A DNA stretch of 51,568 nucleotides from a virus. Location: positions 1 through 51,568 of the IMG/VR virus record IMGVR_UViG_3300028392_001790. The stretch is one strand, 5' to 3'. Below are positions 34,859 through 51,568 of the stretch, piece by piece (positions within the stretch are counted from its first letter, which is position 1; the number at the start of each line of letters is the position of its first letter). The translations under genes were made by a program, and so were the position numbers. The notes beneath the pieces were generated by a model. It worked only from the letters and a program-made list of their open reading frames with translations, made no database searches and was not told the origin of the DNA.

Positions 34859-35995
34859 TTATCTTTCTTCTAAGGCTTTTACTTTTGCTGAAAGCTCTTG
34901 AACTGCTTTAATTAATGGAGCAATAAATTCTTCATATCTAAGTCCCTGCGAAGAATTTAAATTATTAACATCATCTAAAACCCAACCACCAAAATCTGCA
35001 ATTTTTGTTTTATCTATTGATGTTTTTACTTCTTGTGCAATAAGTCCATAATGCCATCTTCCGCTTTCATTTCCAACAATTTGATATTTTACTGGGTTTA
35101 AATCTTCTATAAATGATAAACCCAAATCGGACTTAGCAATATTTTCTTTAGTTCTTTCATCAGACGTTACTACTGTTGCAGATGCTAAATATGCACCTTT
35201 CCAATATTTAGCAGTACCTCCATCTGCAGAAGTTTTACCAAGATAATATGCTGATGTCGTTCCTACTGCTGTTGGATACCAATCACTTCCAACTCCAGTA
35301 GATGCAGTATTTGGTGTTGTTAACGATATTTTTGTTGCTATTGGGTCAAGTGAAGGTGTTATTCCGTCTGCTCCATTTGCCCCATTTGCTCCCGCAGGAC
35401 CCGCTGGTCCAGTTACGCCTTGCTGACCATCTGCTCCTCTTGGGATTCCAAAATTTAAAACAACTGCACTAGAAGTTCCAGAATTTGTTACAGTGGCTAC
35501 ATTTCCTGCTGAAAGTGTTGTTGTTGATGCTACGGAAATTGTTGCTGCTGCATCTCCTTTAGGTCCCGCTGGGCCAGTTGATCCAGTTGCTCCAGTTGTT
35601 CCTGCTGGTATAGAAAAATTAATTATCTGTGACGGGGAGGTTCCAGTAATAGTAACTACTGGAGTTTGTCCTGCTGGTAATGCTGTTACCTGACCTATAT
35701 TAAGAACATTTGATGGGCCTGGTCCACCCAATACTCCATCTTGACCTCTTGGAATATTAAAAGTAAGATGTTGTGATGGAGAAGTTCCAGTAATTAAAAC
35801 TGATGCATTTTGTCCTGCTGCTATAGTATTGGTAGCAATTACATCTAGGGCATTAGAAGGCCCTGCTGGGCCCGTAGGGCCTGGATGTGAATCAAGGTAG
35901 GCATCAACATCAGCAGCTAAATATCCAAGGTCTCTGGGGACGTCTGGAGTGTCTGAATATACTGGGTATCTGAACCCCTTGCCTGTTGTGCTCAT
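34859..35995 (-). CDS. collagen-like fibre protein with C-terminal S74 chaperone, 378 aa
   Basis: Short Gly-X-Y runs occur at about residues 37-46 (GPTGPAGPS), in the middle (GATGSTGPAGPKGD) and again near 200 (GVTGPAGPAGANGANGADG), separated by beta-like segments with the repeated pattern VxITGTSPSQxxxFxIPxG. The last 115 residues are a peptidase S74 domain (VTSDERTKENI, HYGLIAQEV, LIKAVQELSAKVKALEER). Collagen runs and S74 domains both fit a trimeric fibre. The prolines in the Gly-X-Y runs are at X, not Y, so they are not classical targets of vertebrate-type prolyl hydroxylase. The S74 domain is a paralog of the one ending the 898-aa fibre. Confidence 0.85.
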   Translation of the reverse strand: MSTTGKGFRYPVYSDTPDVPRDLGYLAADVDAYLDSHPGPTGPAGPSNALDVIATNTIAAGQNASVLITGTSPSQHLTFNIPRGQDGVLGGPGPSNVLNIGQVTALPAGQTPVVTITGTSPSQIINFSIPAGTTGATGSTGPAGPKGDAAATISVASTTTLSAGNVATVTNSGTSSAVVLNFGIPRGADGQQGVTGPAGPAGANGANGADGITPSLDPIATKISLTTPNTASTGVGSDWYPTAVGTTSAYYLGKTSADGGTAKYWKGAYLASATVVTSDERTKENIAKSDLGLSFIEDLNPVKYQIVGNESGRWHYGLIAQEVKTSIDKTKIADFGGWVLDDVNNLNSSQGLRYEEFIAPLIKAVQELSAKVKALEER

Positions 35996-36016: not shown

Positions 36017-36682
36017 TTATTTTTTATATATTGATGCTGGTGACATATATCTGGTGCCACTAATTATTGGTTTTACTTCATGAATATATGGTTCTTGTGA
36101 TGGGAACATTATTAGACTCCCAGCTTCTGGTTTTAAAGTTATATTATGATTTTTAAAATGAATTTCCCCACCCTCATAATCATCATTTAAATATGTCACT
36201 AGCGAATAGGCTAATTCAGTATGACCATCTTGACCATCAAAATGAGGCCCCATTGATTGTCCAGTATTCCATTTTTTAATTTGTAATTGATCAATATCTA
36301 AATTAAATAATGATTGATCCATACCTAAACTAGAAAAATATCTTTCTGTGCACATTTCTACAGCCATAATCAAACTGTTAATTATGTATAGGGTTCTTTT
36401 ATTTGTATACTCAGAGCCAGTATCAATTTTTGTTGAATTTTTTAAAATAGTTTTAGTAGCACCATAAATTGTGTTTGGATCATCGCTTGCGGTCCATGGA
36501 TTCCATTGTGGAATTCTTTTATAAGAAAGCTGATCATTTAAATCAAGATCTGTTATTGTATTCATTAATTCTTTTGGGAAAGAAATAACATTTTTAAAAT
36601 AAAAAATTTTATCTCCAAGAACTTTTAAATCAAACATATGAAACATTTCTTCTGCATTTATTTGTGGTTTTACATTATTCAT
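36017..36682 (-). CDS. Fe(II)/2-oxoglutarate oxygenase, prolyl-4-hydroxylase type (1 of 6), 221 aa
   Basis: The enzyme family hydroxylates protein side chains, with iron and 2-oxoglutarate as cofactors. The iron ligands are His147 and Asp149 (MGPHFDGQ) and His201 (YIHEV), and Arg211 (SGTRY) would bind 2-oxoglutarate. The YLNDDYEGGEIHF strand is the family hallmark. The N-terminal 110 residues are variable and probably set substrate choice. The start overlaps the previous gene by 8 bases. It is last in the row of oxygenases and next to the collagen-like fibre. Confidence 0.88.
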   Translation of the reverse strand: MNNVKPQINAEEMFHMFDLKVLGDKIFYFKNVISFPKELMNTITDLDLNDQLSYKRIPQWNPWTASDDPNTIYGATKTILKNSTKIDTGSEYTNKRTLYIINSLIMAVEMCTERYFSSLGMDQSLFNLDIDQLQIKKWNTGQSMGPHFDGQDGHTELAYSLVTYLNDDYEGGEIHFKNHNITLKPEAGSLIMFPSQEPYIHEVKPIISGTRYMSPASIYKK

Positions 36683-37439
36683 TTATTTTTTCCACCTCTT
36701 CTGCTGGATAGTGTTCCCCTTGTGGGGTCAACCTTAATCCTTTTTCACGCACATCTTTCCATTCTTCTTGTTCATTTTTTTGATAAGCTCTTACTTCTGC
36801 TAATTCTTTAGCCCATTCATCTCTTGTTTCTTGTGGATAGTCTGATTCTTCTCTATCATCCCAAAATGAACCAATTGTATATCTTGCACTATTTTTTACA
36901 AGGCTTACCTCATGCAAATTTCTATGTCCACCATGGAAAATAGCAAGCATACCAGCTTTTGGTTGTAAATCAAATGCATTTTTTCCAAAATCAGCTTGAA
37001 ATTTTAAAAGGCCTCCTTCAAAATCATCATTTAAATATAAAAACCCAGCATAACGACTTCTTGTAAAAGCACCGTATACACCATCATTAGTTGTATTATC
37101 TGAATGTAAATTTGCAAAAGCTCCTGGAAGCCATCTTTGTGTATGATAACTAATTTTTGAAACTTTTTCTAATGGCACATTAGCAACATCTGCTGCTGCT
37201 TGCTTAAATCTTTTTTCTATATCAGAAAACCAAGTAGAAGGTAGCCCATGTTTTTCTAATAAAGGGTGATTATCTTCTGGGTATCCTGAAGAATAAGATT
37301 CATAAAATGAAATTCCTTTCCAAAAATCTGGAATAGTATCTGCGTATTCTAATAAGCATGCTATTGTTTTTTTGGATTCTTCCTCAGTAATAAATTCTTC
37401 ATAAATATCAATATCATCTTGTTTTTTTATTTTATTCAT
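36675..37439 (-). CDS. Fe(II)/2-oxoglutarate oxygenase, prolyl-4-hydroxylase type (2 of 6), 254 aa
   Basis: Iron ligands His112-Ser-Asp114 (NLHSDNT) and His176 (RNLHEV), with Arg186 (NSARY) for 2-oxoglutarate. The YLNDDFEGGLLKF hallmark is present. Unlike its neighbours the C-terminus carries about 60 extra residues rich in Glu and Lys (ETRDEWAKELAEVRAYQKNEQ), likely a helical extension. It starts in TAATG overlap with the next oxygenase upstream. All catalytic residues are intact. Confidence 0.88.
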   Translation of the reverse strand: MNKIKKQDDIDIYEEFITEEESKKTIACLLEYADTIPDFWKGISFYESYSSGYPEDNHPLLEKHGLPSTWFSDIEKRFKQAAADVANVPLEKVSKISYHTQRWLPGAFANLHSDNTTNDGVYGAFTRSRYAGFLYLNDDFEGGLLKFQADFGKNAFDLQPKAGMLAIFHGGHRNLHEVSLVKNSARYTIGSFWDDREESDYPQETRDEWAKELAEVRAYQKNEQEEWKDVREKGLRLTPQGEHYPAEEVEKINE

Positions 37440-38278
37440 TACATTGCTCCTTGTGGACCACTACGATCTCCAGTAAGATCATCATATTCTACTGGGCTTC
37501 CGTCTTGCAAGTATCTCATATTTCTTGGATCTTCATGTGAAATTCTTTCAAATTCTTTTTTCATCCAATTATATGCACCAAATTGTTTTTGATTTTTTAA
37601 CCATTCTTCGGTGCCATCAAATGGAGTCATTATAAAGTTTCTTACAAAAAATTTACGACCATTGTAAATAGTTTTTACGCCATGAAAATATGGTTCACGA
37701 GAAGGAAATACCAAAATGTCTCCTGCTACTGGTTTGTGATTAATTAACTTACCATCAACAAAAAATTCAATATCTCCGCCATCATAATCATCATTGATAT
37801 ACATTGTGCAAGTAATATAAAACTTATCTCCAGGCATATCTTTTTGAGAAGTAATGAAATCAGTATGATATTGCATTGTCATTTTATTGGATAATGAATC
37901 AATTTGATCATTATATTTAGAATATGAACAACCACTAAATCTCCATCCTTCTGGCAAATCTAACTGGTGCCTATGTACATAATCCATGAGTACGTCATCA
38001 TATGCTTTTTGTACTTTTTCAACAAAATCTTTTTCTTCAATATATCGTGGATGAGATTTAATTGATTCATCCGTTACATCAAATTGTTCATTTTTTGATT
38101 GAGTATAAGTTCCAAAATGTGACCAGGGATCCCAATTTTTTAAAAAATATTGTCCATTAGCATCTGCGTCGGATTGCTTCATAGTTTCATACATTGCTTT
38201 AGGATCTGCTAGTACATTTTTATATACATCAACTTTTGGATATAGCTCAAGATATTCTAATTTAGCTAAATTGGACAT
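37439..38278 (-). CDS. Fe(II)/2-oxoglutarate oxygenase, prolyl-4-hydroxylase type (3 of 6), 279 aa
   Basis: Iron ligands His138-Thr-Asp140 (MQYHTDF) and His199 (PYFHGV); Lys209 (NGRKF) takes the 2-oxoglutarate-binding place, as a lysine does in collagen prolyl-4-hydroxylases. YINDDYDGGDIEF is the hallmark strand. It is a close paralog of the next gene upstream (38278-39132): they share long stretches such as MPGDKFxITCTMYINDDY and FVRNFIMxPFDGT, evidence of a tandem duplication followed by divergence. TAATG overlaps on both ends. Confidence 0.88.
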   Translation of the reverse strand: MSNLAKLEYLELYPKVDVYKNVLADPKAMYETMKQSDADANGQYFLKNWDPWSHFGTYTQSKNEQFDVTDESIKSHPRYIEEKDFVEKVQKAYDDVLMDYVHRHQLDLPEGWRFSGCSYSKYNDQIDSLSNKMTMQYHTDFITSQKDMPGDKFYITCTMYINDDYDGGDIEFFVDGKLINHKPVAGDILVFPSREPYFHGVKTIYNGRKFFVRNFIMTPFDGTEEWLKNQKQFGAYNWMKKEFERISHEDPRNMRYLQDGSPVEYDDLTGDRSGPQGAM

Positions 38279-39132
38279 TACATTTTCTCCTTGTTATTGG
38301 CTGTTCCACCATCAGAAATAGAAACTTCATTATATTTTAATGGAAGATCTTCATACTTAACGGGATTTCCGTCTATTAAATAAATCATATTTCTAGTATC
38401 TTCATAATCAATGCGATCAAATTCTTTTTTGCCCCAGCGATAAGCACCATATTTTTTTTGATTTTCTAGCCATTCTAAAGTGCCATCAAATGGTTCCATT
38501 ATAAAATTTCTTACAAAATATTTATAACCATTTTGTATTGTTTTAACTCCGTGATAATATGGAGCATCTGATGGGAATACAACAACATCGCCAGCTGATG
38601 GTTTATAGGTAATGATATTTCCATCAACAAAAAATTCTAAATCTCCACCTTCGTAATCATCATTAATATACATGGTGCAAGTTATTTTAAACTTATCACC
38701 AGGCATGTCTTTTTGCGAAATAATAAAGTCTGTATGGTATTGCATTGTCATTTCATTTTTTAAAGTATTTATATCAGAATTATATTTACAAAAAGAAGAA
38801 CCGCTAAAATGCCATTCATTTTTTAAAATAATATTATGTCTTTTAACATAATCATTTAATATTAAATCATATGCTTTTTCTACACTATCAACAAACTCTT
38901 TTTCTTTTACAAACGTTAAATTATTAAAATCTTCTTGAGAATATTCATCTATCCATTTTTTTTGAGTATAAGTACCAAAATGTGCCCATTTATCCCAAGA
39001 TCTAAAATAAGAATTTTCTAAATTATTTATTTCAGAATTTTTAATTACATCATAAAATCCTTGTGGGTCAGATAATACATTTTTATATACATCAATATTT
39101 GGGTATAATTCAAAATATTCTAAATTATTCAC
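38278..39132 (-). CDS. Fe(II)/2-oxoglutarate oxygenase, prolyl-4-hydroxylase type (4 of 6), 284 aa
   Basis: Sister gene of 37439-38278. Iron ligands His133-Thr-Asp135 (MQYHTDF) and His194 (YYHGV); Lys204 (NGYKY) for 2-oxoglutarate. It starts at GTG 39132, overlapping the upstream stop as GTGA, and ends in TAATG. The C-terminal 25 residues differ from its sister. Both open with a similar segment (LEYFELYPNIDVYKNVLSDP), which may dock a common substrate. The pair probably modify related sites. Confidence 0.88.
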   Translation of the reverse strand: MNNLEYFELYPNIDVYKNVLSDPQGFYDVIKNSEINNLENSYFRSWDKWAHFGTYTQKKWIDEYSQEDFNNLTFVKEKEFVDSVEKAYDLILNDYVKRHNIILKNEWHFSGSSFCKYNSDINTLKNEMTMQYHTDFIISQKDMPGDKFKITCTMYINDDYEGGDLEFFVDGNIITYKPSAGDVVVFPSDAPYYHGVKTIQNGYKYFVRNFIMEPFDGTLEWLENQKKYGAYRWGKKEFDRIDYEDTRNMIYLIDGNPVKYEDLPLKYNEVSISDGGTANNKEKM

Positions 39133-39809
39133 GGTTGTTTTTCACCAGTATGTTTCATAATTGTCCAAAAAAATGGAGAGGTAAATCTATTTCCTGATTT
39201 AACTGGTCTTACTCCGTGAACATAATTTCTATCTCCTGGGAAAAAGTATGCTGCACCAGCTTTAGGCTGAAATTCTATTCCTTGCACTGGGAAATAAAGT
39301 TCTCCGCCTTCATAATCGTCATTAAAATAAAATAATCCTGCTATATCATAATGGGGAAAATCATTTGGTCTACCCGCTTCAATCCCAGAATGAAATTCTT
39401 TATCAGCATGTGGCTCCTGACGAGCTCCAACTGGCCAACGAACAATAGCTGGGCCTGTTTCTTTTACATCTACATTAAAAAATGCGTCAACTTCTATTTT
39501 AAGTCTACGAATCATATCATAAATTAATTCAAGAATTGAAGGATCGGATGCTACCAAAGAATCGTGTGTGCAAACTCTATCAGCCCAAACTTTAGCATCG
39601 TAAAGGACAAGACCATCTTCATCAACGCTGTCTTGAGTTATATCCCAAATTTTATTATTAAGAGCAAATGTCATTAATTTTAATTTTTCTTCTTCTGTCA
39701 AGAAGTTTTCAATTTCTACAATATTATTTAATGAATCCCCAAAAAATCCAGATGGAGTAATTGATATTGGTCTATTTTGATAAAATTCTTTGTCATTTGC
39801 AAGCTTCAT
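39129..39809 (-). CDS. Fe(II)/2-oxoglutarate oxygenase, prolyl-4-hydroxylase type (5 of 6), 226 aa
   Basis: Iron ligands His134-Ala-Asp136 (EPHADKEF) and His198 (NYVHGV), Arg208 (SGNRF) for 2-oxoglutarate, and YFNDDYEGGELYF. A loop insertion after the first ligands (EFHSGIEAGRPNDFPHYDIAG) distinguishes it from the others. The gap upstream holds a TATAAT at 39838-39833 that may be a weak promoter (no good -35). First gene of the run of five adjacent oxygenases. Confidence 0.88.
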   Translation of the reverse strand: MKLANDKEFYQNRPISITPSGFFGDSLNNIVEIENFLTEEEKLKLMTFALNNKIWDITQDSVDEDGLVLYDAKVWADRVCTHDSLVASDPSILELIYDMIRRLKIEVDAFFNVDVKETGPAIVRWPVGARQEPHADKEFHSGIEAGRPNDFPHYDIAGLFYFNDDYEGGELYFPVQGIEFQPKAGAAYFFPGDRNYVHGVRPVKSGNRFTSPFFWTIMKHTGEKQP

Positions 39810-39853
39810 TTTTTTCCTTTTCTTTGAGTTTAATTATACCATTAAGGCAATAA

Positions 39854-40558
39854 TTATTCTACCTCTTCAGTATATAATAATATTTTTTTAACCTGATGTT
39901 TTCCTAAGCTTTTGCCTAAATGATCTATTGCATTTCTATACATATTAGACCATATTCCAGCTTGTTGTTTTTCCATAACATACTTTGTATAGCCTGGGTC
40001 ATTTTGTATTTCTTCGCTATTTAATTTTAATCCATTTTTTATAAAAATTTTAGAACCCTGAATTAATTCAAGATCAATTGGCATTATTGCTATTACTGGA
40101 TCTCCTGCTTTAATTGTTATAATTTCATTTGCTTTTATTATTTTCCAAGAAGGATGTAAATCTCCTTTTAAAAATGAAGTATTTAATAATACTGATAACG
40201 GCTCTGCGCCGTCAATAAAATAATTTGGAATTGGATATACCATTAAGGTTAAATTTTCTGGTGTTTTAAACATTAGCCCAGTTTTAAATGTTATTAAATT
40301 ATTTCCTCTTTCAGTATAAACATATTCTTCACCTTCTAATATTTTTATATTATTAGGATTTGGGTCTGTATCGCCGTTCCAAATAAATGAAATATCTTTT
40401 GGAAAAGATATTCCCCATCCATAATTATTTATTAATCCTAACGGCATACATTGATAAGCATGTTTATTTGATGTATTGTCCATCCAATCTCTTTTGACCT
40501 CTAAAGGTTTAAGTATTGCTGGTTCTTTAAATAATTTATATACATCAATTTCAAACAT
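39854..40558 (-). CDS. DUF6065-like protein, copy 1, 234 aa
   Basis: The N-terminus (KPLEVKRDWMDNTSNKHAYQCMPLGLINNYGWGISFP) matches my memory of the DUF6065 pattern (a DWMD motif, then a CxPL...N..GW stretch). The end has KQQAGIWSNMYRNAIDHLGKSLGKHQVK. The body is a run of beta strands that could form a cupin-like barrel, and there is a conserved VIAIMPIDLE stretch. The function is unknown. It is a paralog of the next gene upstream and both are enclosed by oxygenase genes, suggesting a joint pathway. Confidence 0.72.
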   Translation of the reverse strand: MFEIDVYKLFKEPAILKPLEVKRDWMDNTSNKHAYQCMPLGLINNYGWGISFPKDISFIWNGDTDPNPNNIKILEGEEYVYTERGNNLITFKTGLMFKTPENLTLMVYPIPNYFIDGAEPLSVLLNTSFLKGDLHPSWKIIKANEIITIKAGDPVIAIMPIDLELIQGSKIFIKNGLKLNSEEIQNDPGYTKYVMEKQQAGIWSNMYRNAIDHLGKSLGKHQVKKILLYTEEVE

Positions 40559-41262
40559 TATTTATCTTTAACGTTTAATCTAATTGCTTTTACTTGATGT
40601 TTGCCAATCATATTGCCAAGATGGTCTACGGCATCCCTATAAAAATTTGTCCATTTACCAGTTCTATTTATTTCATAAACTATGTTTCCATATTCTGCAA
40701 CATTAAATTTTGAAGCAGGAACATTTTTTAAATCATCAAATTGAATTTCTGAATTTTGCAAATTTTCTAAATCTATTGGTAAAATTGCAATTACTGGCGT
40801 GTTGGCTTTAATTGTAATTTCAACATTTGGCTCGGTTAATCTCCATGCTGCTGGTAGGTCGCCAGCAAAAAATGATGTGCTTATTAAGGTTGTAAATGGA
40901 GAAATACCTCTTCTAAAAAAATTAGGAACGGGCATGGAAAGCAATGTAGTATTTTCATCTGAAATTAACATTACTCCAGTATTAAAGCTAATTGTAGCAT
41001 TACCTCTTTCTGCGGAAACATATTTTTCTCCTTTAAGAATTTTAACATGCTCACTACTTGAATCAGAAATGCCGTCCCAAATAAATGTTATATCCTCTGG
41101 AAATGATATACCCCATCCCAACATATTTGAAAGACTTACAGGGAAACATTTATATGCATGAGCTTCCCAAGTTTCATCCATCCATTCTCTTTTTACAGTT
41201 AATGGCTCAAGGATTCCATATCCTTCTCTAGTTTTGTATGCCGTTAGCTTTTGCAATTTCAT
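40558..41262 (-). CDS. DUF6065-like protein, copy 2, 234 aa
   Basis: Same length and layout as copy 1: LTVKREWMDETWEAHAYKCFPVSLSNMLGWGISFP, the AILPIDLENLQ stretch, then WTNFYRDAVDHLGNMIGKHQVKAIRL. It couples to copy 1 through a one-base TAATG overlap. Its start overlaps the end of the oxygenase gene 41228-41914 by 35 bases, tighter than usual and consistent with the same transcript. Tandem duplication is clear, the biochemical role is not. Confidence 0.72.
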   Translation of the reverse strand: MKLQKLTAYKTREGYGILEPLTVKREWMDETWEAHAYKCFPVSLSNMLGWGISFPEDITFIWDGISDSSSEHVKILKGEKYVSAERGNATISFNTGVMLISDENTTLLSMPVPNFFRRGISPFTTLISTSFFAGDLPAAWRLTEPNVEITIKANTPVIAILPIDLENLQNSEIQFDDLKNVPASKFNVAEYGNIVYEINRTGKWTNFYRDAVDHLGNMIGKHQVKAIRLNVKDK

Positions 41263-41914
41263 TTCTTTTCATAACAAGTCTATAAAATTCTTCGCTATGT
41301 GCATTATCATTATAATCTAACATGGTTACAATAGAATATTTTTTACCAGATTTTACTGGTCTGGCAACATGAGAAAATAAATATGTAGATGGGAATATAT
41401 AAAGGTCGCCAGCTTTTGGTTTTATGTTTAAATCTAATTTTGGAAAATATAATTCTCCGCCTTCATAATCGTCATTTGGATAAGCGACTAATGAAACTGT
41501 GGCGGAATAAGAATATCCATGATCTGCATGCTCTTGGAAATGTTGATTTGGTCCATATTTAATAAAATTCATTACTTCCCAATAATTCATTCTTACATTA
41601 TATTTAGCACAATAATCTTCAACTGCTGGCAGATGAGCATTGTAAGAATCTTTCCAAATTGAAGTTAATTCTTTTTGTAAATCATTTGATGGATATTTAA
41701 TTTCACCAATTTTAAAATCTTGACAATCTCTATAGTCTAATTTAATATCTTGATACCCAACAAGTGCATCTTGCCATTTATAGGCACCGTTACTTGATTC
41801 AATTAAATTAGAAGCTCTTTCCATTAATTTAAGCTCAGGATTAATAGCATCTCGATATACCCAGACACCAGGAAATAACATTTCCTTTGAAGACCAATTT
41901 GAAGCTGTTTGCAT
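41228..41914 (-). CDS. Fe(II)/2-oxoglutarate oxygenase, prolyl-4-hydroxylase type (6 of 6), 228 aa
   Basis: Iron ligands His129-Ala-Asp131 (QEHADHG) and His182 (LFSHVA); Lys192 (SGKKY) for 2-oxoglutarate; AYPNDDYEGGELYF is the hallmark strand. It is the first gene of the modification cluster, behind the promoter-like palindrome at 41939-41967, and is separated from the other five oxygenases by the two DUF6065-like genes. It directly follows the gene for the FFPP-repeat/Hint protein, the best candidate substrate in the neighbourhood. Confidence 0.88.
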   Translation of the reverse strand: MQTASNWSSKEMLFPGVWVYRDAINPELKLMERASNLIESSNGAYKWQDALVGYQDIKLDYRDCQDFKIGEIKYPSNDLQKELTSIWKDSYNAHLPAVEDYCAKYNVRMNYWEVMNFIKYGPNQHFQEHADHGYSYSATVSLVAYPNDDYEGGELYFPKLDLNIKPKAGDLYIFPSTYLFSHVARPVKSGKKYSIVTMLDYNDNAHSEEFYRLVMKRNEIAKANGIQN

Positions 41915-41938
41915 TTAGTTTCCTTTTCTCTAAATACA

Positions 41939-41967
41939 GTTTAACATATTGAAGTTCAGTATGTCAA
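41939..41967 (-). promoter_or_regulatory. promoter with near-perfect 27-bp palindrome ahead of the oxygenase cluster
   Basis: The minus strand has a consensus TTGACA at 41967-41962. Possible -10 sequences are TTAAAC (17-base spacing) or TAAACT (18-base). The whole of 41941-41967 is a palindrome with 13-base arms and only two mismatched pairs around a central base. The symmetry covers the -35 to -10 region, as a dimeric repressor site would. Confidence 0.66.
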
Positions 41968-41977
41968 GAAAATTTAT

Positions 41978-43384
41978 TTAATTTTCTGGATATGCATTAT
42001 AGACTAGGTGACCATTTGCAATTATTAATCCAAATGGAGACCTTAAGAAATCATATACTATAACATTTTCATCAATTATATTAATTTGTTCTACTGTTAT
42101 AATATTTATTGCATCATTTTCAAAAGATACTAATTTATCTTCTACTTTTATTTGATCAGCGCTTATAAATTTATAAACATTATCAGATAATATTAATATA
42201 TCTTCTTGTAATGAAAATTTTGTATTTTCATTATTATTAATTTGAATTGTTTGATTAACTTCATGAGTTTTAATTTCATTTACTATTGAGTGATCTTCTC
42301 TTAATAAACTAAGTTTTTCTGATTTCCAATTTTTAACAGTTTCTGCATTTCCAATTGGAATTAAATCAAATGAAATTGTTATTAAACTATCGCCCAAAAC
42401 AATGTCTTTTGCTTTTTTATATCCATCTATTGTTAATACCAACGTATTTTCTGAAATACAGAAAGATGGCGGGCTAAAGAAAAATGGTGGACTAAAGAAA
42501 AACGGTGGACTAAAGAAGAACGGCGGGAAGAATGGTGGTGAGAAGAATGATGGTGGTGAGAAGAATGCTGGTGGTGAGAAGAATGCTGGTGGGAAGAATG
42601 GTGGTGCAAAGAATGATGGTGGGAAGAACGGCGGGAAGAATGGTGGTGCAAAGAATGTAGGTGGGAAGAACGGCGGGAAGAATGGTGGTGCAAAGAATGT
42701 AGGTGGGAAGAACGGTGGGAAGAATGGTGGTGCAAAGAATGTAGGTGGGAAGAACGGTGGGAAGAATGGTGGGAAGAACGGTGGGAAGAATGGTGCCTGT
42801 GTAGTAACAGTATTGGAAGCTGCTGATGTTGCTGAATTTCCATTAGCATTTGTTGCATAAACTGTATAAGATTGTGAGGTATTTGCTGTTTCTGGAACAA
42901 CATGGGTTAATAAGGTTTCTGCATATGTTGGTCCATCAGAAGAAATTAAAGTATAGCCAGTTATAGCTGATCCTCCGTCTGATGGAGCAACCCATGTAAC
43001 AGAATCTTGATTTACTTGAGCTGTCGCTACTGGGGCTGCTGGGGTATCTGGCACTGTAGTAGCTGTTATGGAATTTGATGCAGCAGAAGAAGGGGAGCTT
43101 CCCACTGCATTTGTAGCAACAACAGTAAATGTATATGCTGTATTTGATTGTAATCCAGTTACTGATACTGGTGAAGATGCTCCAGTTCCAGTATATCCTC
43201 CTGGAGAAGATGTTACTGTAAATGAAGTAGCTGCATAGGTTGAATCTGGGGTAAATGTTACTGTAGCAATACCATTATTAAATGCTCGTCCTGTACCAGA
43301 TGTAGTTGCTGTACCAATTGTAGGTTGTTTTGGAGCCAAGAAGTCATTTGCTGACTCTGAAAATTTACCTGCTTGCTTTGACAT
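41978..43384 (-). CDS. fibre/surface protein: two FnIII domains, FFPP/FFxPP repeat, C-terminal Hint domain, 468 aa
   Basis: Residues about 15-110 and 112-198 are fibronectin type III-like (LQSNTAYTFTVVATNAVGSS; TPAAPVATAQVNQDSVTWVAPSDGGS). Residues 199-308 are an uninterrupted Phe/Pro tract built of FFPP, FFAPP and FFSPP units, with a 14-residue superrepeat. Residues 309-463 form a Hint (hedgehog/intein) domain beginning at Cys309 (CISENTLVLTIDGYKKAKDIVLGD) and ending LIIANGHLVYN, with only five residues after the terminal Asn. Compared with the intact Hint in the protein at 49145, the block B His is replaced by Asp (FSLQEDILIL) and the penultimate His by Tyr, so catalysis may be reduced or altered. 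It is a virion-surface candidate located directly upstream of the oxygenase cluster. Confidence 0.8.
   Translation of the reverse strand: MSKQAGKFSESANDFLAPKQPTIGTATTSGTGRAFNNGIATVTFTPDSTYAATSFTVTSSPGGYTGTGASSPVSVTGLQSNTAYTFTVVATNAVGSSPSSAASNSITATTVPDTPAAPVATAQVNQDSVTWVAPSDGGSAITGYTLISSDGPTYAETLLTHVVPETANTSQSYTVYATNANGNSATSAASNTVTTQAPFFPPFFPPFFPPFFPPTFFAPPFFPPFFPPTFFAPPFFPPFFPPTFFAPPFFPPFFPPSFFAPPFFPPAFFSPPAFFSPPSFFSPPFFPPFFFSPPFFFSPPFFFSPPSFCISENTLVLTIDGYKKAKDIVLGDSLITISFDLIPIGNAETVKNWKSEKLSLLREDHSIVNEIKTHEVNQTIQINNNENTKFSLQEDILILSDNVYKFISADQIKVEDKLVSFENDAINIITVEQINIIDENVIVYDFLRSPFGLIIANGHLVYNAYPEN
42461..42790 (-). repeat. 330-bp purine-rich repeat tract encoding the Phe/Pro domain
   Basis: The plus strand consists of repeating GAA/AAG and GGT/GGG/CGG units, so the coding strand is a run of TTC/TTT and CCx codons. 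A 42-bp superrepeat (starting GGTGGGAAGAACGGCGGGAA) recurs about four times between 42600 and 42750. Strong strand asymmetry makes replication slippage and triplex formation possible. Confidence 0.9.
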
Positions 43385-43412: not shown

Positions 43413-46400
43413 TTAAGCTGATAGGTCTCCGAAGATTAACCATGTATTGGTTGCAACCTTCATTGCTGTAGCTACTGATCCAGTTGCTCTAAGCTTTAGA
43501 CCTGGTGTATTTATAAATGTTACTCCAGAATCAGCTACAAAGGCTGCTAATGAACCTGAAGCTTGATAGAAATCTATTGATGTTCCTACTGGATATGCGG
43601 TTGTAGCATTTGCTGGTATTGTAATATTTACTGTTCCAGCCACTGGAATCATTTGATCTCTTGCTGTTAAACCTATTGATGATAAGTTTGTGTTTGCAGA
43701 AATTGATGCTCCAATTGTTGTAAGTGATGCAACTCCAGCAGTTGATTGCTGTGTTCCGTCTGAGAACTGGATTAATCCACCTGATGCATATGTGACTGTT
43801 CCAGACATTGTTGGAGATGTAATTGATGCTCCTGTTGGAATTGTTACTGTACCAGTAAATGTTGGTGATGCAATTTTAGCAAATCCTGAGATATTTGCGC
43901 CTGCAGGAATTGTTACAGTTCCTGTAAATGTTGGTGAGGCAAGTGGTGCTTTTGTTCCTACTAATGTAGAAAGAGTTGCAGCGGTTGCTTCGTCAGCAGT
44001 AAGTGCTGCTGCTAATTCTCCAAGAGTATCTAAAGCAGCCGATGCTCCATTTACAAGAGCAGTTACTTCTCCTCTAACATATGCAGTAGTTGCAAGTTGT
44101 GTTGTATTTGTTCCAGCTGCTGCTGTGGGAGCTACTGGTGTTCCAGTAAATGTTGGAGAAGCTAAATCAGCTTTTAAAGCAAAACTTGATGAAAGTCCTG
44201 AAATTTTAGACTGAGCAATTGCTGCTGAGGCATTAATGTCTACATCAACAATTGTTCCATCAGCAATTTTAGCTGATGTAATTGCTGAATCAGCAATCAT
44301 TGCTGTAGAAATTGTTCCAGTGTCTGCTTGAGTTACTGCAGTTCCTGCAACCTTAGTTGCAGCTATTGCAGCTGCTGTATTTATATCAGCGTTTACAATT
44401 GTGCCATCAAGAATCATTCCAGAAGTAACTGTTCCACTTGGAAGAATTACAGTTCCTGTAAATGTTGGTGAGGCAAGTGGTGACTTAGCATCTAAAGCAG
44501 CTTGTGTAGCTGTTGATATAGGCTTAAGAGCATCTGTTGTATTATCTACATTTGAAAGCCCAACCATAGATTTTGTAATTCCAGAAACAGTACCAGTAAA
44601 TGTTGGTGATGCAATTGGAGCTAATGCTGCTAAAGCAGGAACTAAACCTGAAACTTTAGACTGTGCAATTGCAGCTGACGCATTAATATCTGCATCTATA
44701 ATTGTGCCGTCAGCAATTTTAGCTGAGGTAATAGCTGAATCTGCAATATCTGCTGATACTATAGAATTAACAAGGGCTAATTTAGAATAAGCAATTGCTG
44801 CGGATGCTGAAATATCTTCATTAATTATTGTTCCATTAACAATATCTGATGAGGTAATTGATCCAGTTAAATTTAATTTAGAATAAGCAATTGCTGCTGC
44901 TGGACTAATATCTCCATTTACAATTGAATTGTCTGCAATTTTTGCTGAATTAATGGCACCGTCTGCAATATCTATTGTTGCAATTGTTCCATTTGTAATT
45001 TTAGCAGAAGTAATTGTTTCATCTACGATAAAACTTCCTGAAATAGAACCCGATGGGAATGAAATTGTTCCAGTAAATTGTGGGTCTGCTGATGTTGCTT
45101 TAGCAGATAGCGCTGTTGTAAGTCCAGAAATCTTTGATTGTGCAATTGCAGCTGATGGGGAAATATCTACATCAAGAATTGTTCCATTTAAAATTTTTGA
45201 AGAGGTAACAGAATTATCAGCAATCATTGTTGATGTTACTGAACCAGTGTCTGCTTGAGTTACTGCAGTTCCTGCAACCTTAGTTGGGTCAATACTTGCT
45301 GAAGAGCTTATATTTACATTTGTAATTGTGCTAGGAGCAATCATTGTAGAGGTTACGGTTCCTCCTGGGAGAGTAACGGTTCCTAAAAATGTTGGTGATG
45401 AAATTGGTGCATATGTACTTGCAGCATTTGCAGTACTTAATTTTTCATCAAGTTGTGTTTGAATTGGTCTGGTTACATTGTGTAGCTGTTGAATTTCTGA
45501 ATTTGTTACTGATCCTATATTTGCTGAAGTCGCTGAAAGTAATCCAATTTCTAAATTATCTTTAGTGTGAGTTGTTAAATCAATAGCTCCACTTGCTGGT
45601 TCTGTTATAACACCAGAGAATAATTTCCAGGTTCCGTCTGAATGATCTCTTACAAGTCCTGTATGTTGATATGTGCCATCATTAAAATGTCCAACAAATC
45701 CAAGATCATTTGTATTTGCGCTATTGCTAGTACCCATATAAATAAGGGGATCTGCAATGGAAAGATTTGTTGAATTAACAGTAGTTGTAGTACCAGTTAC
45801 ATTTAAATTAGAAACATTTACTGTTCCCGCTGTTAATGTTCCAGTTATATTTGCTGTTACCGCATCAATTTCTGATGCTGTTAGTGTTCCAGAAAATGAA
45901 GGAGAATTTGCTAAAGTTATAGATAAAGTATTTGCTGCATCATCATAATTTTTAGTTAAATTTGTTCCAACTGATAATGCGCTTGCCATTGCATCTTGTG
46001 CTGATTCTACAAGCTCTGCTTTTGTAGCAAGAACTGATGTATCAGCTGAAATTGTTAATGTATTTGCTGCATCATCATAATTTTTTAAAATTCCAGTGCC
46101 AGCTGTAATTGCTTGTGCAACTGCATCTTGAGATAATTCAGTAATATCTAATTGTGAGGCTGGTACTTTGCCTGATGAGTTTAATGTGGCAACTCCATTG
46201 GCAACTCCCATATCTGATACGGGTATGTATTCTGCTAATGTATTTTGAAGGTTTGCTAAAGGTTCGTTAGCATAACCAAGGGCTGTCCAAGTATTTGTTC
46301 CGTTACCAAATTTAATAAAATTAGTATCAGACTCAAGGCCCATTTCTCCCGCTGCTAAGATTGGATTAACTGAGGCCCATTCTGCGGAGGTTCCTCTACG

Positions 46401-46424
46401 TACTTGAATTCTTACTGTTGACAT
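43413..46424 (-). CDS. long tail fibre with Mtd-like N-terminus and repeat shaft, 1003 aa
   Basis: The first 50 residues (VRIQVRRGTSAEWASVNPILAAGEMGLES, then FGNGTNTWTALGYA) match the N-terminal attachment domain found in the major tropism determinant and many phage fibres. The shaft is a long series of about 25-30-residue repeats of the type SAKIADGTIVDADINASAAIAQSKISGL mixed with SPTFTGTVxxP units, which should form a beta-helical or triple-stranded fibre. The C-terminal 80 residues end in TYPVGTSIDFYQASG-like sequence, typical of a receptor-binding tip. A promoter candidate (46451-46471) precedes the gene with the 128-aa gene between them and the window edge side. Internal DNA repeats suggest length variation. 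Confidence 0.86.
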   Translation of the reverse strand: MSTVRIQVRRGTSAEWASVNPILAAGEMGLESDTNFIKFGNGTNTWTALGYANEPLANLQNTLAEYIPVSDMGVANGVATLNSSGKVPASQLDITELSQDAVAQAITAGTGILKNYDDAANTLTISADTSVLATKAELVESAQDAMASALSVGTNLTKNYDDAANTLSITLANSPSFSGTLTASEIDAVTANITGTLTAGTVNVSNLNVTGTTTTVNSTNLSIADPLIYMGTSNSANTNDLGFVGHFNDGTYQHTGLVRDHSDGTWKLFSGVITEPASGAIDLTTHTKDNLEIGLLSATSANIGSVTNSEIQQLHNVTRPIQTQLDEKLSTANAASTYAPISSPTFLGTVTLPGGTVTSTMIAPSTITNVNISSSASIDPTKVAGTAVTQADTGSVTSTMIADNSVTSSKILNGTILDVDISPSAAIAQSKISGLTTALSAKATSADPQFTGTISFPSGSISGSFIVDETITSAKITNGTIATIDIADGAINSAKIADNSIVNGDISPAAAIAYSKLNLTGSITSSDIVNGTIINEDISASAAIAYSKLALVNSIVSADIADSAITSAKIADGTIIDADINASAAIAQSKVSGLVPALAALAPIASPTFTGTVSGITKSMVGLSNVDNTTDALKPISTATQAALDAKSPLASPTFTGTVILPSGTVTSGMILDGTIVNADINTAAAIAATKVAGTAVTQADTGTISTAMIADSAITSAKIADGTIVDVDINASAAIAQSKISGLSSSFALKADLASPTFTGTPVAPTAAAGTNTTQLATTAYVRGEVTALVNGASAALDTLGELAAALTADEATAATLSTLVGTKAPLASPTFTGTVTIPAGANISGFAKIASPTFTGTVTIPTGASITSPTMSGTVTYASGGLIQFSDGTQQSTAGVASLTTIGASISANTNLSSIGLTARDQMIPVAGTVNITIPANATTAYPVGTSIDFYQASGSLAAFVADSGVTFINTPGLKLRATGSVATAMKVATNTWLIFGDLSA

Positions 46425-49144: not shown

Positions 49145-51568
49145 TTATTGTTTATAAGAAGTTTGATTATGTGTCATTAACCCTCTTACAAAATAAACAT
49201 CTTTTGGATCAATATTTATACTTACAGTATTGACATCTTCAACTATTTCTTCTTTAGATACCACTGGAACAATTTCTAGGTTATCGTTCATGATCATGTC
49301 CCCAACTTCAAGACTTAATACATTTTTAAATCTCCAAACTCCATCTCTTTGGAAAGGAATTATGTGTTCCCATGTAATATTAATTAAATCATTTATTCTG
49401 TAATATCTATTGTATGTGTTTAATTCAACATTTGTAACTTCTGAGGTAGTTTTAGTGGTTGCAGATATATCTTCTGACGACCACGTTGTCATATAACTAA
49501 ATAGTGTATCATCGTCTGGTACTGTTGGAATATCTGCTGCCATAACAAGTTCGCCAACTTGAAGAGTTTCCATATTTTTCCAACTTCCATCTGCCATTAA
49601 AATTTCTGTTCCATATATTAAGCAACCACCGCCACCGCCAAATGATGGTGGGCTAAAGAATGACGGTGGTGAAAAGAATGCTGGTGGTGAGAAGAATGAT
49701 GGTGGAGTAAAGAAGAATGGTGGGGCAAAGAATGATGGTGGTGAGAAGAATGCTGGTGGTGAGAAAAAGAATGGTGGACTAAAGAAAAATGGTGGGGCAA
49801 AGAATGCTGGTGGTGAAAAGAATGCTGGTGGTGAGAAGAATGCTGGTGGTGAAAAGAATGCTGGTGGTGCGAAAAAGAATGGTGGGCTAAAGAAGAATGG
49901 TGGGGCAAAGAATGATGGTGGTGTAAATGAAGTATACGGAGCACATGCATCTGGTATTCCTAATATTGCAATAATATCGGCTGAACTAAGGTTTGCATTT
50001 GATGTAGTTCCAGTAAGAAAAGAATGACCGCTTGATGGGGTTGGAGTACCATAAGTACCAAAATAATTTCCAGAAAAACCATTACAATCTACATAAATTG
50101 AATAACTTCCAGCTTGATATTGGTATCGAACAACATTTATTGTATAAGGTAAAGTGGGGTTATTATATACTGTTCCAGCTATTGGAGATTGTGACCGTAT
50201 TTGATTATTTGATGTATGGTCTGATGTTCCGAATACTCCATTTGTATTAATAATATATGTTTCATAGTTTCCATCTGCTATAGTACTAGTGACAAGGTCT
50301 GGGACCGTGTATGTGGTACCAACATTTGTTGGTGAATTATTCCATGCATAATAATGAACAGTAATTTGTACTGGCAAGTTTAAGGTATCAATTTGAGTAC
50401 CCGATGCTGGGCTTTGTGTTGCAATTATTCCATCTAAACTTTGTACTGTTGTTGCTACTGTTGAGCCTACATAAACAGTATATCCATTTCCGCCGTTCAT
50501 AACACTGCCAACAAGTGATCCAGTTAAATCTGGAACGGAGTAATAGGTTGTAGTTGATCCTCCTCCTGAACCAGCACCACCTCCACCAGATGGGGTCGCT
50601 ATAGCATGAATTGTTTCGCTAGAAATTATGTTAACAGTTCCAATAGCATTAGTTGCAATTGAATATGCTTTAAAATAAGCATTTGCATTTACATCAGAGC
50701 TTGTTATAGTATATGATCCTGAAATCCGTGTGCCATCAGTAACAGATGTTGGAGCAGATCCATATTTAACTATTAATCCAGTATCAACAGTTGTTGCGTC
50801 TGACCAGCTTGTAGTTAAAGCACCAGATATTGGTGTTCCAGAATATTGAGTTCCTGTTGGGTATAATCCAATAACACCCTGAGATGGAAGATTTGGGGCA
50901 GTTTGAAAAGTTACATTATTACTTTGTATTACTTGAGGAGTGGAATATCCTAAAACTGTTCCAGTAACTTTAACATACCATGGTCCGCTTATTGTTGTTG
51001 GATCATAGTATTGTAAAAATTGACTTGTTCCTGTTGTGCCATAATAAGTAAGTGATGGGCTATTTGCAAATATACCAAAAGCTGCGTAAATTTCCCATGA
51101 TGTTTCAGTCATATTATTAACTGTCCAAGATGCATTACTTCCATTAGTTTGTCCACCAGGTGCAGTAAATATTACAGAAGGCTTATTTGGTCTAATATCA
51201 GCAAAAGATGAATTTGTTGCTCCGCCTTGAACTTTATATCCGCCCAATGCAGTAGTTGCTGGATTAGAATTATTGACTGGAGCTATATAAATTCCTATTC
51301 CATATTGCGGATCAAAAGCTGTTGTATCCAAAGTCCAAGAATTTGTATTTCCTAAAGAAACATTATAGTAAACATTTGATTGCCAATATTGAATTTCATA
51401 TCCAGTTGCTCCTGCTGATTGATTCCAATATAATGTTGCTGAAATATTTGAAGTAACTACTGGATAGACTCCGCTAATTGCTCGTGGTGTTATAAATTGA
51501 CCAGTATATGCTGTATCCGTTGGAAGGCTGGGGCCAGATTGATTTGTTGCAATTATTACACATTTTAT
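49145..51568 (-). CDS. surface protein: FnIII-like, two PASTA-like domains, FFxPP repeat, C-terminal Hint domain; N-terminus beyond window
   Basis: The frame is open to the right edge, with no stop upstream of the TTG near 51331, so the gene starts outside the window. Visible parts in order: FnIII-like domains (SATLYWNQSAGATGYEIQYW), two PASTA-like domains (SVPDLTGSLVGS...ATQSPASGT and TVPDLVTSTIADG...RSQSPIAGT), a short Cys-containing domain, an FFSPPA-type hexamer repeat of about 95 residues, a GGGGG linker and a 159-residue Hint domain. The Hint starts CLIYGTEILMADGSWKNMETLQVGE, has block B ITWEHIIPF and ends VYFVRGLMTHN followed by six residues. All key Hint residues are present (Cys1, block B Thr/His, terminal His-Asn). 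PASTA domains bind peptidoglycan-like ligands, so it may grip the cell wall. Confidence 0.82.
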   Translation of the reverse strand: MKCVIIATNQSGPSLPTDTAYTGQFITPRAISGVYPVVTSNISATLYWNQSAGATGYEIQYWQSNVYYNVSLGNTNSWTLDTTAFDPQYGIGIYIAPVNNSNPATTALGGYKVQGGATNSSFADIRPNKPSVIFTAPGGQTNGSNASWTVNNMTETSWEIYAAFGIFANSPSLTYYGTTGTSQFLQYYDPTTISGPWYVKVTGTVLGYSTPQVIQSNNVTFQTAPNLPSQGVIGLYPTGTQYSGTPISGALTTSWSDATTVDTGLIVKYGSAPTSVTDGTRISGSYTITSSDVNANAYFKAYSIATNAIGTVNIISSETIHAIATPSGGGGAGSGGGSTTTYYSVPDLTGSLVGSVMNGGNGYTVYVGSTVATTVQSLDGIIATQSPASGTQIDTLNLPVQITVHYYAWNNSPTNVGTTYTVPDLVTSTIADGNYETYIINTNGVFGTSDHTSNNQIRSQSPIAGTVYNNPTLPYTINVVRYQYQAGSYSIYVDCNGFSGNYFGTYGTPTPSSGHSFLTGTTSNANLSSADIIAILGIPDACAPYTSFTPPSFFAPPFFFSPPFFFAPPAFFSPPAFFSPPAFFSPPAFFAPPFFFSPPFFFSPPAFFSPPSFFAPPFFFTPPSFFSPPAFFSPPSFFSPPSFGGGGGCLIYGTEILMADGSWKNMETLQVGELVMAADIPTVPDDDTLFSYMTTWSSEDISATTKTTSEVTNVELNTYNRYYRINDLINITWEHIIPFQRDGVWRFKNVLSLEVGDMIMNDNLEIVPVVSKEEIVEDVNTVSINIDPKDVYFVRGLMTHNQTSYKQ
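49640..49926 (-). repeat. 287-bp purine-rich repeat tract encoding FFxPP hexamers
   Basis: The plus strand is a run of 18-bp units such as GGTGGTGAGAAGAATGCT, giving FF[S/A/T]PP[A/S/F] hexamers on the minus strand. It is the same type of tract as at 42461-42790 but with a different period (18 bp versus 12-15 bp units). Its position immediately before a Hint domain is the same. Confidence 0.9.

Follow-up and report, generated by a model that had tools for sequence, protein, structure and literature searches.

Six genes for 2-oxoglutarate (2OG)-Fe(II) oxygenases lie directly after a gene for a Phe/Pro-repeat protein in a linear DNA of 51,568 bases, the complete IMG/VR record IMGVR_UViG_3300028392_001790 (the whole of which is referred to here as the window), which is probably a viral fragment. 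The arrangement goes far beyond what chance would give and is found again in dozens of further contigs, and the association of oxygenase clusters with Phe/Pro repeats is near-perfect across repeat types and across two phage backbones. We regard it as very probable that the cluster and the repeat proteins are functionally paired. It is likely, if less firmly so, that the oxygenases are prolyl-4-hydroxylase (P4H) or prolyl hydroxylase domain (PHD)-type enzymes that hydroxylate Pro of the Phe/Pro tracts encoded upstream of them. We give even weight to the full proposal, namely that aquatic phages with two or more unrelated backbones use several enzymes in a pathway that hydroxylates prolines of their Phe/Pro surface fibres, with paralogues specialised by repeat position and with Hint processing of the hydroxylated tract in some.

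The oxygenases and their predicted fold

All six oxygenases are encoded on the minus strand and, as an earlier note on this DNA had stated from the letters alone, each is complete with an intact HxD...H site. Every one passes the curated cut-off of the PF13640 (2OG-FeII_Oxy_3) profile (E 7e-8 to 6e-13; 33.7-50 bits against a cut-off of 27), a search of the whole record with this profile gave exactly six matches, and in 6/6 the iron triad is followed by a Lys or Arg 9-10 residues past the second His. They are oxygenase 1 (41228..41914; H129-A-D...H182...K192), oxygenase 2 (39129..39809; H134-A-D), oxygenase 3 (38278..39132; H133-T-D), oxygenase 4 (37439..38278; H138-T-D), oxygenase 5 (36675..37439; H112-S-D; Pfam E 7.4e-9) and oxygenase 6 (36017..36682; H147-F-D...H...R; Pfam E 2.6e-12). 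Apart from oxygenases 3 and 4, which are 59% identical, the paralogues share just 19-32% identity with one another, which rules out a recent tandem amplification, and they have clear counterparts in other phages. The HxD...H...K/R motif is kept in 567 of 571 homologous cluster oxygenases from the fetched loci.

Structure modelling covered oxygenase 1, for which AlphaFold 2 gave a model with a predicted local distance difference test score (pLDDT) of 91.6. The 50 best matches of this model in the PDB, as found by Foldseek, were all prolyl hydroxylases, and the top match by VIA-align was 3gze, an algal P4H with (Ser-Pro)5 (Z 20.3, root mean square deviation 2.2 over 173 residues). As modelled, oxygenase 1 has a double-stranded beta-helix fold closest to those of prolyl hydroxylases. 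Its nearest PDB sequence is the Bacillus anthracis P4H (BaP4H; E 3e-7 alone, 6e-8 with a profile), and the P4H of the algal virus PBCV-1 is a weak sequence match. The clusters comprise 3-13 oxygenases each; one 16.7 kb piece that carries an FPPYFPP gene (L308) has 13 2OG open reading frames (ORFs), and a record of 107 kb (G045) has 15 PF13640 matches.

The Phe/Pro tracts

The gene directly before the oxygenases (41978..43384, minus strand) encodes candidate substrate 1, composed of an fn3 domain (E 1.1e-8), a Phe/Pro tract and a Hint domain, an order of domains that is kept in relatives. The position and FFPP/FFxPP character of this gene were correctly described in the earlier note; the tract measures 109 residues (42467..42793). 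The second repeat protein that it had reported, our candidate substrate 2 (49145..51568, minus strand; 807 residues or more, with its start past the contig end), likewise bears a Hint domain and an FFxPP tract, here of 95 residues (49646..49930). Phe is encoded in the two tracts by 60 TTC and 23 TTT codons, whereas twelve other genes of the window together use 30 TTC and 275 TTT, about nine TTT to each TTC; the tract is therefore not a simple DNA repeat in the usual codons of the window. One explanation for the TTC preference is possibly a selection against slippery runs of T, as the avoidance of long T runs would preserve the reading frame through the FF repeats.

From one repeat type to another, Phe (30%) and Pro (31%) are retained and the residues that separate them vary freely, so that the repeat, as read from the collected sequences, is broader than FFxPP and has Phe and Pro as its sole constants. 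Pro-Gly is common in the collected tracts, where Gly follows Pro 653 times, and is absent from the two tracts of the window. A cellular origin of the repeats was rejected, as a search for FFxPP in approximately 85,000 species genomes gave 11 matches, none of which was near a 2OG oxygenase. A tblastn search of cultured phages with the repeat-Hint protein gave no match, possibly owing to low-complexity filtering.

Co-occurrence of oxygenases and repeats

The association was examined by three selections, made with the portal, the FFxPP repeat and the oxygenase. The earlier note had asked whether most relatives carry the oxygenases without a Pro-rich protein, or the reverse; what was found is a pairing that is near-exceptionless in all three selections. 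It had also proposed a comparison of oxygenase number with the presence of FFxPP; when 35 whole records from the portal selection were searched for the exact pattern, it was present in 14, each with at least five oxygenases, and in none of the records with 0-2 oxygenases. The existence of phages with the cluster and no repeat, as judged by the exact FFxPP pattern, was considered and rejected, because the DNA upstream of such clusters shows variant Phe/Pro repeats. These are found in an fn3 protein at the same place (FPPFFPPHFPP, FPFFPPYFP and FGFTPFGFTP) or, in the case of FPTFPT, in a second gene. With these variants included, all 24 of the cluster-bearing portal-selected records in which the upstream region is visible carry a Phe/Pro-repeat protein (L008, L012, L015, L016, L018, L019, L022, L023, L026, L027, L030, L035, L039, L041, L043, L046 (by eye), L049, L050, L052, L065, L068, L074, L078 and L084); in L007 just a Hint end can be seen. 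The FGFTP cluster of L046 and L221 (record G012) has a different enzyme set, which includes HDHGG-type oxygenase-like proteins unmatched by the oxygenase profile used.

In the repeat selection, among the matches listed, a 2OG ORF lies within 3 kb downstream of 61 of the 67 FFxPP ORFs that have 3 kb of downstream sequence; 21 FFxPP records, again among those listed, have no oxygenase in the fetched piece, and 18 of these have one elsewhere, the remaining three being contigs of 8.5-13.5 kb. The oxygenase selection used a query from a different phage lineage and loci with at least 2 kb upstream. A Phe/Pro-tract ORF was found within 3 kb upstream in 50 of 53 loci, often abutting the oxygenase (median distance approximately 12 bp), against a background of 76 Phe/Pro ORFs among the 1514 ORFs of at least 100 residues in these loci. 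Repeat types in this selection include PPFPPPFAPPF, FPPYFPP and PFFPPFFPFFPP. The three misses, all put down to scoring or to contig ends, comprise an artefact of chain splitting (L329, where the repeat ends at 2337 and the first oxygenase is at 2341), a locus with its Phe/Pro repeat 3.6 kb from the oxygenase (L347) and a contig truncated upstream (L324).

The pairing is also seen where the module has moved. On the portal tree, the cluster must have been gained or lost beside the portal three times or more, and the module is also present in a deep portal branch (L128, L139, L148 and L174). Some records with no cluster beside the portal, for example G015 and G021, carry, elsewhere, a gene for a PASTA-(FNPGFNP)-Hint protein with one oxygenase a few genes downstream. 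A reduced module consisting of a PASTA-FNPGFNP-Hint gene, a few small genes and one oxygenase was observed at L227 (9368-13318) and L237 (14734-18214). A second backbone is represented by contigs of up to 205 kb without a match to the phrog_12 portal, the terminase of which resembles those of Moorella phage MTATph1 (38%) and Bacillus phage KLEB27-3; here a short PASTA-like FFxPP protein lacks Hint and is flanked by oxygenases and DUF6065 genes. The T4-like major capsid protein gp23 (PF07068), tried as a marker for this backbone, had no match anywhere and was hence uninformative. The two backbones that carry the module are unrelated.

Alternative explanations

One alternative, which we hold to be very improbable, is that the oxygenases hydroxylate, as collagen P4Hs do, the collagen-like (GXY) peptidase_S74 fibre whose gene (34859..35995, minus strand) adjoins them directly downstream. 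Of 37 loci that bear the cluster, 24 show a GXY stretch of at least six triplets upstream of the portal, and BaP4H is reported to be active on collagen-like peptides (Schnicker and Dey 2016, as cited in PMC10952196). However, the other 13 of these loci have no such stretch there, the loci richest in GXY (115-148 triplets: L060, L064, L066 and L071) are without an oxygenase upstream of the portal, and Pro is almost absent from the Y position of the stretches, as it is scarce there in viral collagens generally (PMC3368898). Because GXY fails to track the oxygenases and Y-position Pro is nearly absent, the Phe/Pro tract is favoured as the substrate and the collagen-like fibre was rejected as the main one. 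It is also hardly probable that the oxygenases are auxiliary metabolic genes acting on host proteins, such as EF-Tu, or on small molecules, with an incidental neighbourhood. This would agree with a cyanophage-type single 2OG gene placed in a replication module (one of the two phage examples examined) and with the modification of EF-Tu reported for bacterial P4H relatives (PMC10952196), but it leaves unexplained why clusters follow Phe/Pro-tract genes, almost always within 3 kb, in two backbones and with varied repeats. Gene order hardly changes between related phages, and the genes could in principle be an old fibre-region block that is copied among phages while functionally untied; we find this barely credible, as the pair is unbroken by change of backbone, relocation, replacement of the repeat and a divergence of the enzymes to 19-32% identity.

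A further possibility accepts the tract as the substrate but has Phe (or Tyr, His or Ser in the variant repeats) hydroxylated by at least some of the paralogues, and not Pro alone. Phe is as constant as Pro in the repeats and the six paralogues are highly divergent; against this, the one paralogue that was modelled best matches prolyl hydroxylases, and we consider such a role for other residues unlikely. Several points do weigh against the hydroxylation of tract prolines that we prefer. The support for it is genomic and structural rather than chemical, and the association names no residue, so that the modified position could also be Phe or one within the fn3 part. Host proteins are possible targets too, given the reports on EF-Tu. 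Furthermore, phages within one selection are related and the counts are not independent, the Phe/Pro thresholds were widened once the variant repeats had been seen, and several records without a cluster beside the portal, though fragments, show neither feature.

Proposed mechanism and relation to known systems

We propose that the oxygenases would act late in expression: the Pro-rich tract, extended in a polyproline-II-like form, would be bound and its prolines hydroxylated with O2, 2-oxoglutarate and Fe(II), either ahead of fibre assembly on the virion surface or in the course of it. The paralogues probably split this work by sequence context or by step. Hydroxylation would solubilise a very hydrophobic tract, stiffen it, or make it ready for binding or glycosylation. 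The dedicated prolyl hydroxylation of surface proteins suggested in the earlier note has gained support from a genomic pairing and a prolyl-hydroxylase-like model; the modification itself and the presence of these proteins in the virion are inferred.

The closest parallel is with the P4Hs of algae and plants that act on hydroxyproline-rich cell-wall proteins. The Chlamydomonas enzyme P4H-1 is the best match of the model, and in both cases the actual or candidate target is a simple Pro-rich repeat, whereas the enzymes described here are encoded by phages, occur as clusters and are paired with Phe-rich rather than Ser/Hyp-rich repeats. The P4H of PBCV-1 (5c5t) is also virus-encoded, small and of the same fold (Z 17.8), but its virus infects algae and no adjacent repeat partner has been described; it hydroxylates Pro-containing peptides and its role in replication is unknown (PMC7019647). 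BaP4H and the PPHD of Pseudomonas putida have close folds (4iw3, Z 19.5) but, unlike the phage enzymes, are cellular, with EF-Tu or collagen-like peptides as their reported targets. The single 2OG-Fe(II) oxygenases of cyanophages (PHROG 61) belong to the same superfamily, with approximately 26-38% identity, in most cases confined to a portion of the protein; in contrast to the window cluster, the two cyanophage and methylophage genes examined are single, lie outside the fibre region and have no annotated Phe/Pro partner.

Phage 2OG oxygenases are widespread, and among marine phages Phold records structures that resemble EGLN3, with no substrate given (PMC12774648); a survey of the Baltic Sea called the viral use of P4H cryptic (PMC9301287). 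We found no report of an oxygenase cluster paired with Phe/Pro repeats in the open-access literature, a search that lay outside subscription papers and preprints. The module supplies a specific candidate substrate in the Phe/Pro tracts of fibre-region proteins. If the proposal is correct, these phages modify surface proteins of their own by hydroxylation, and the maturation of their virions would need both O2 and 2-oxoglutarate. Small hydroxylases that act on simple repeats would then be open to study as a new set; the system would be a phage counterpart of the modification of extensin, a plant cell-wall protein, and of animal collagen.

Hint and DUF6065 domains

The earlier note spoke of Hint proteins as the partners of the oxygenases. 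Both repeat proteins of the window do carry the domain, but elsewhere it is no constant partner and is usually degenerate. In candidate substrate 1 (41981..42460, minus strand) the first Cys is kept, while the block-B His is lost and the C-terminal HN has become YN; candidate substrate 2 (49148..49624, minus strand) has all three motifs, namely the first Cys, TxEH and the C-terminal HN. A profile of 22 Hint copies matches the bacterial intein-like (BIL) domain 2lwy (E 4e-8) and the gp41-1 intein, and 12 of its 22 members match Intein_splicing; unlike BIL/Hint domains, however, most of the phage copies are without the block-B His or the terminal HN. By a regular-expression count, the first Cys, TxxH and the terminal HN occur together in 7 of 62 non-redundant copies. 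Across loci the C-terminal Hint may be apparently complete (Cys, TxEH and HN), degenerate or missing altogether, a range that looks like the repeated loss of autoprocessing. A role for Hint as an essential partner was rejected, as many Phe/Pro proteins stop soon past the tract (77 tract ORFs, redundancy not removed, have fewer than 60 residues beyond it) and most Hint domains are degenerate. We read Hint as an optional C-terminal piece that is active, at most, in a subset of the phages.

The two DUF6065-like paralogues that had been noticed within the cluster were verified by PF19541 matches (40558..41262, E 3e-28, and 39854..40558, E 1.9e-31; both minus strand). The AlphaFold 2 model of the former (pLDDT 92) has dUTPases as its best matches among solved structures (Z about 11), with no oxygenase among the matches listed, and the family is, on this model, probably dUTPase-like and not of an oxygenase fold. 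The idea that DUF6065 is a dead oxygenase paralogue is accordingly unsupported. A role in assembly or in presenting the substrate would be a guess, and no mention of the family was found in the open-access literature.

Genomic context of the window

The earlier description of the window was accurate, and its coordinates hold throughout. On the minus strand the gene for candidate substrate 2 is followed by three small fibre-region genes, a gene for a fibre-like protein with an Mtd_N domain (43413..46424; PF18454, E 3e-12; matches to tail-fibre PHROGs), the gene for candidate substrate 1, oxygenase 1, the two DUF6065 genes, oxygenases 2-6 and the collagen-like S74 fibre, and then by genes for a laminin-G-like protein, a small protein and the portal. 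With the Mtd_N protein as its neighbour, the module sits in the fibre region. The portal is approximately 55% identical to those of Streptomyces phages, for example Muntaha and BillNye, the latter classified in the Stanwilliamsviridae, and by this measure the window is related to these phages and an actinobacterial host is likely. In the cultured relative BillNye, the genes upstream of the portal differ from those of the window. At the replication end of the contig, a tRNA-Leu (taa) gene (1713-1786) overlaps a short ORF.

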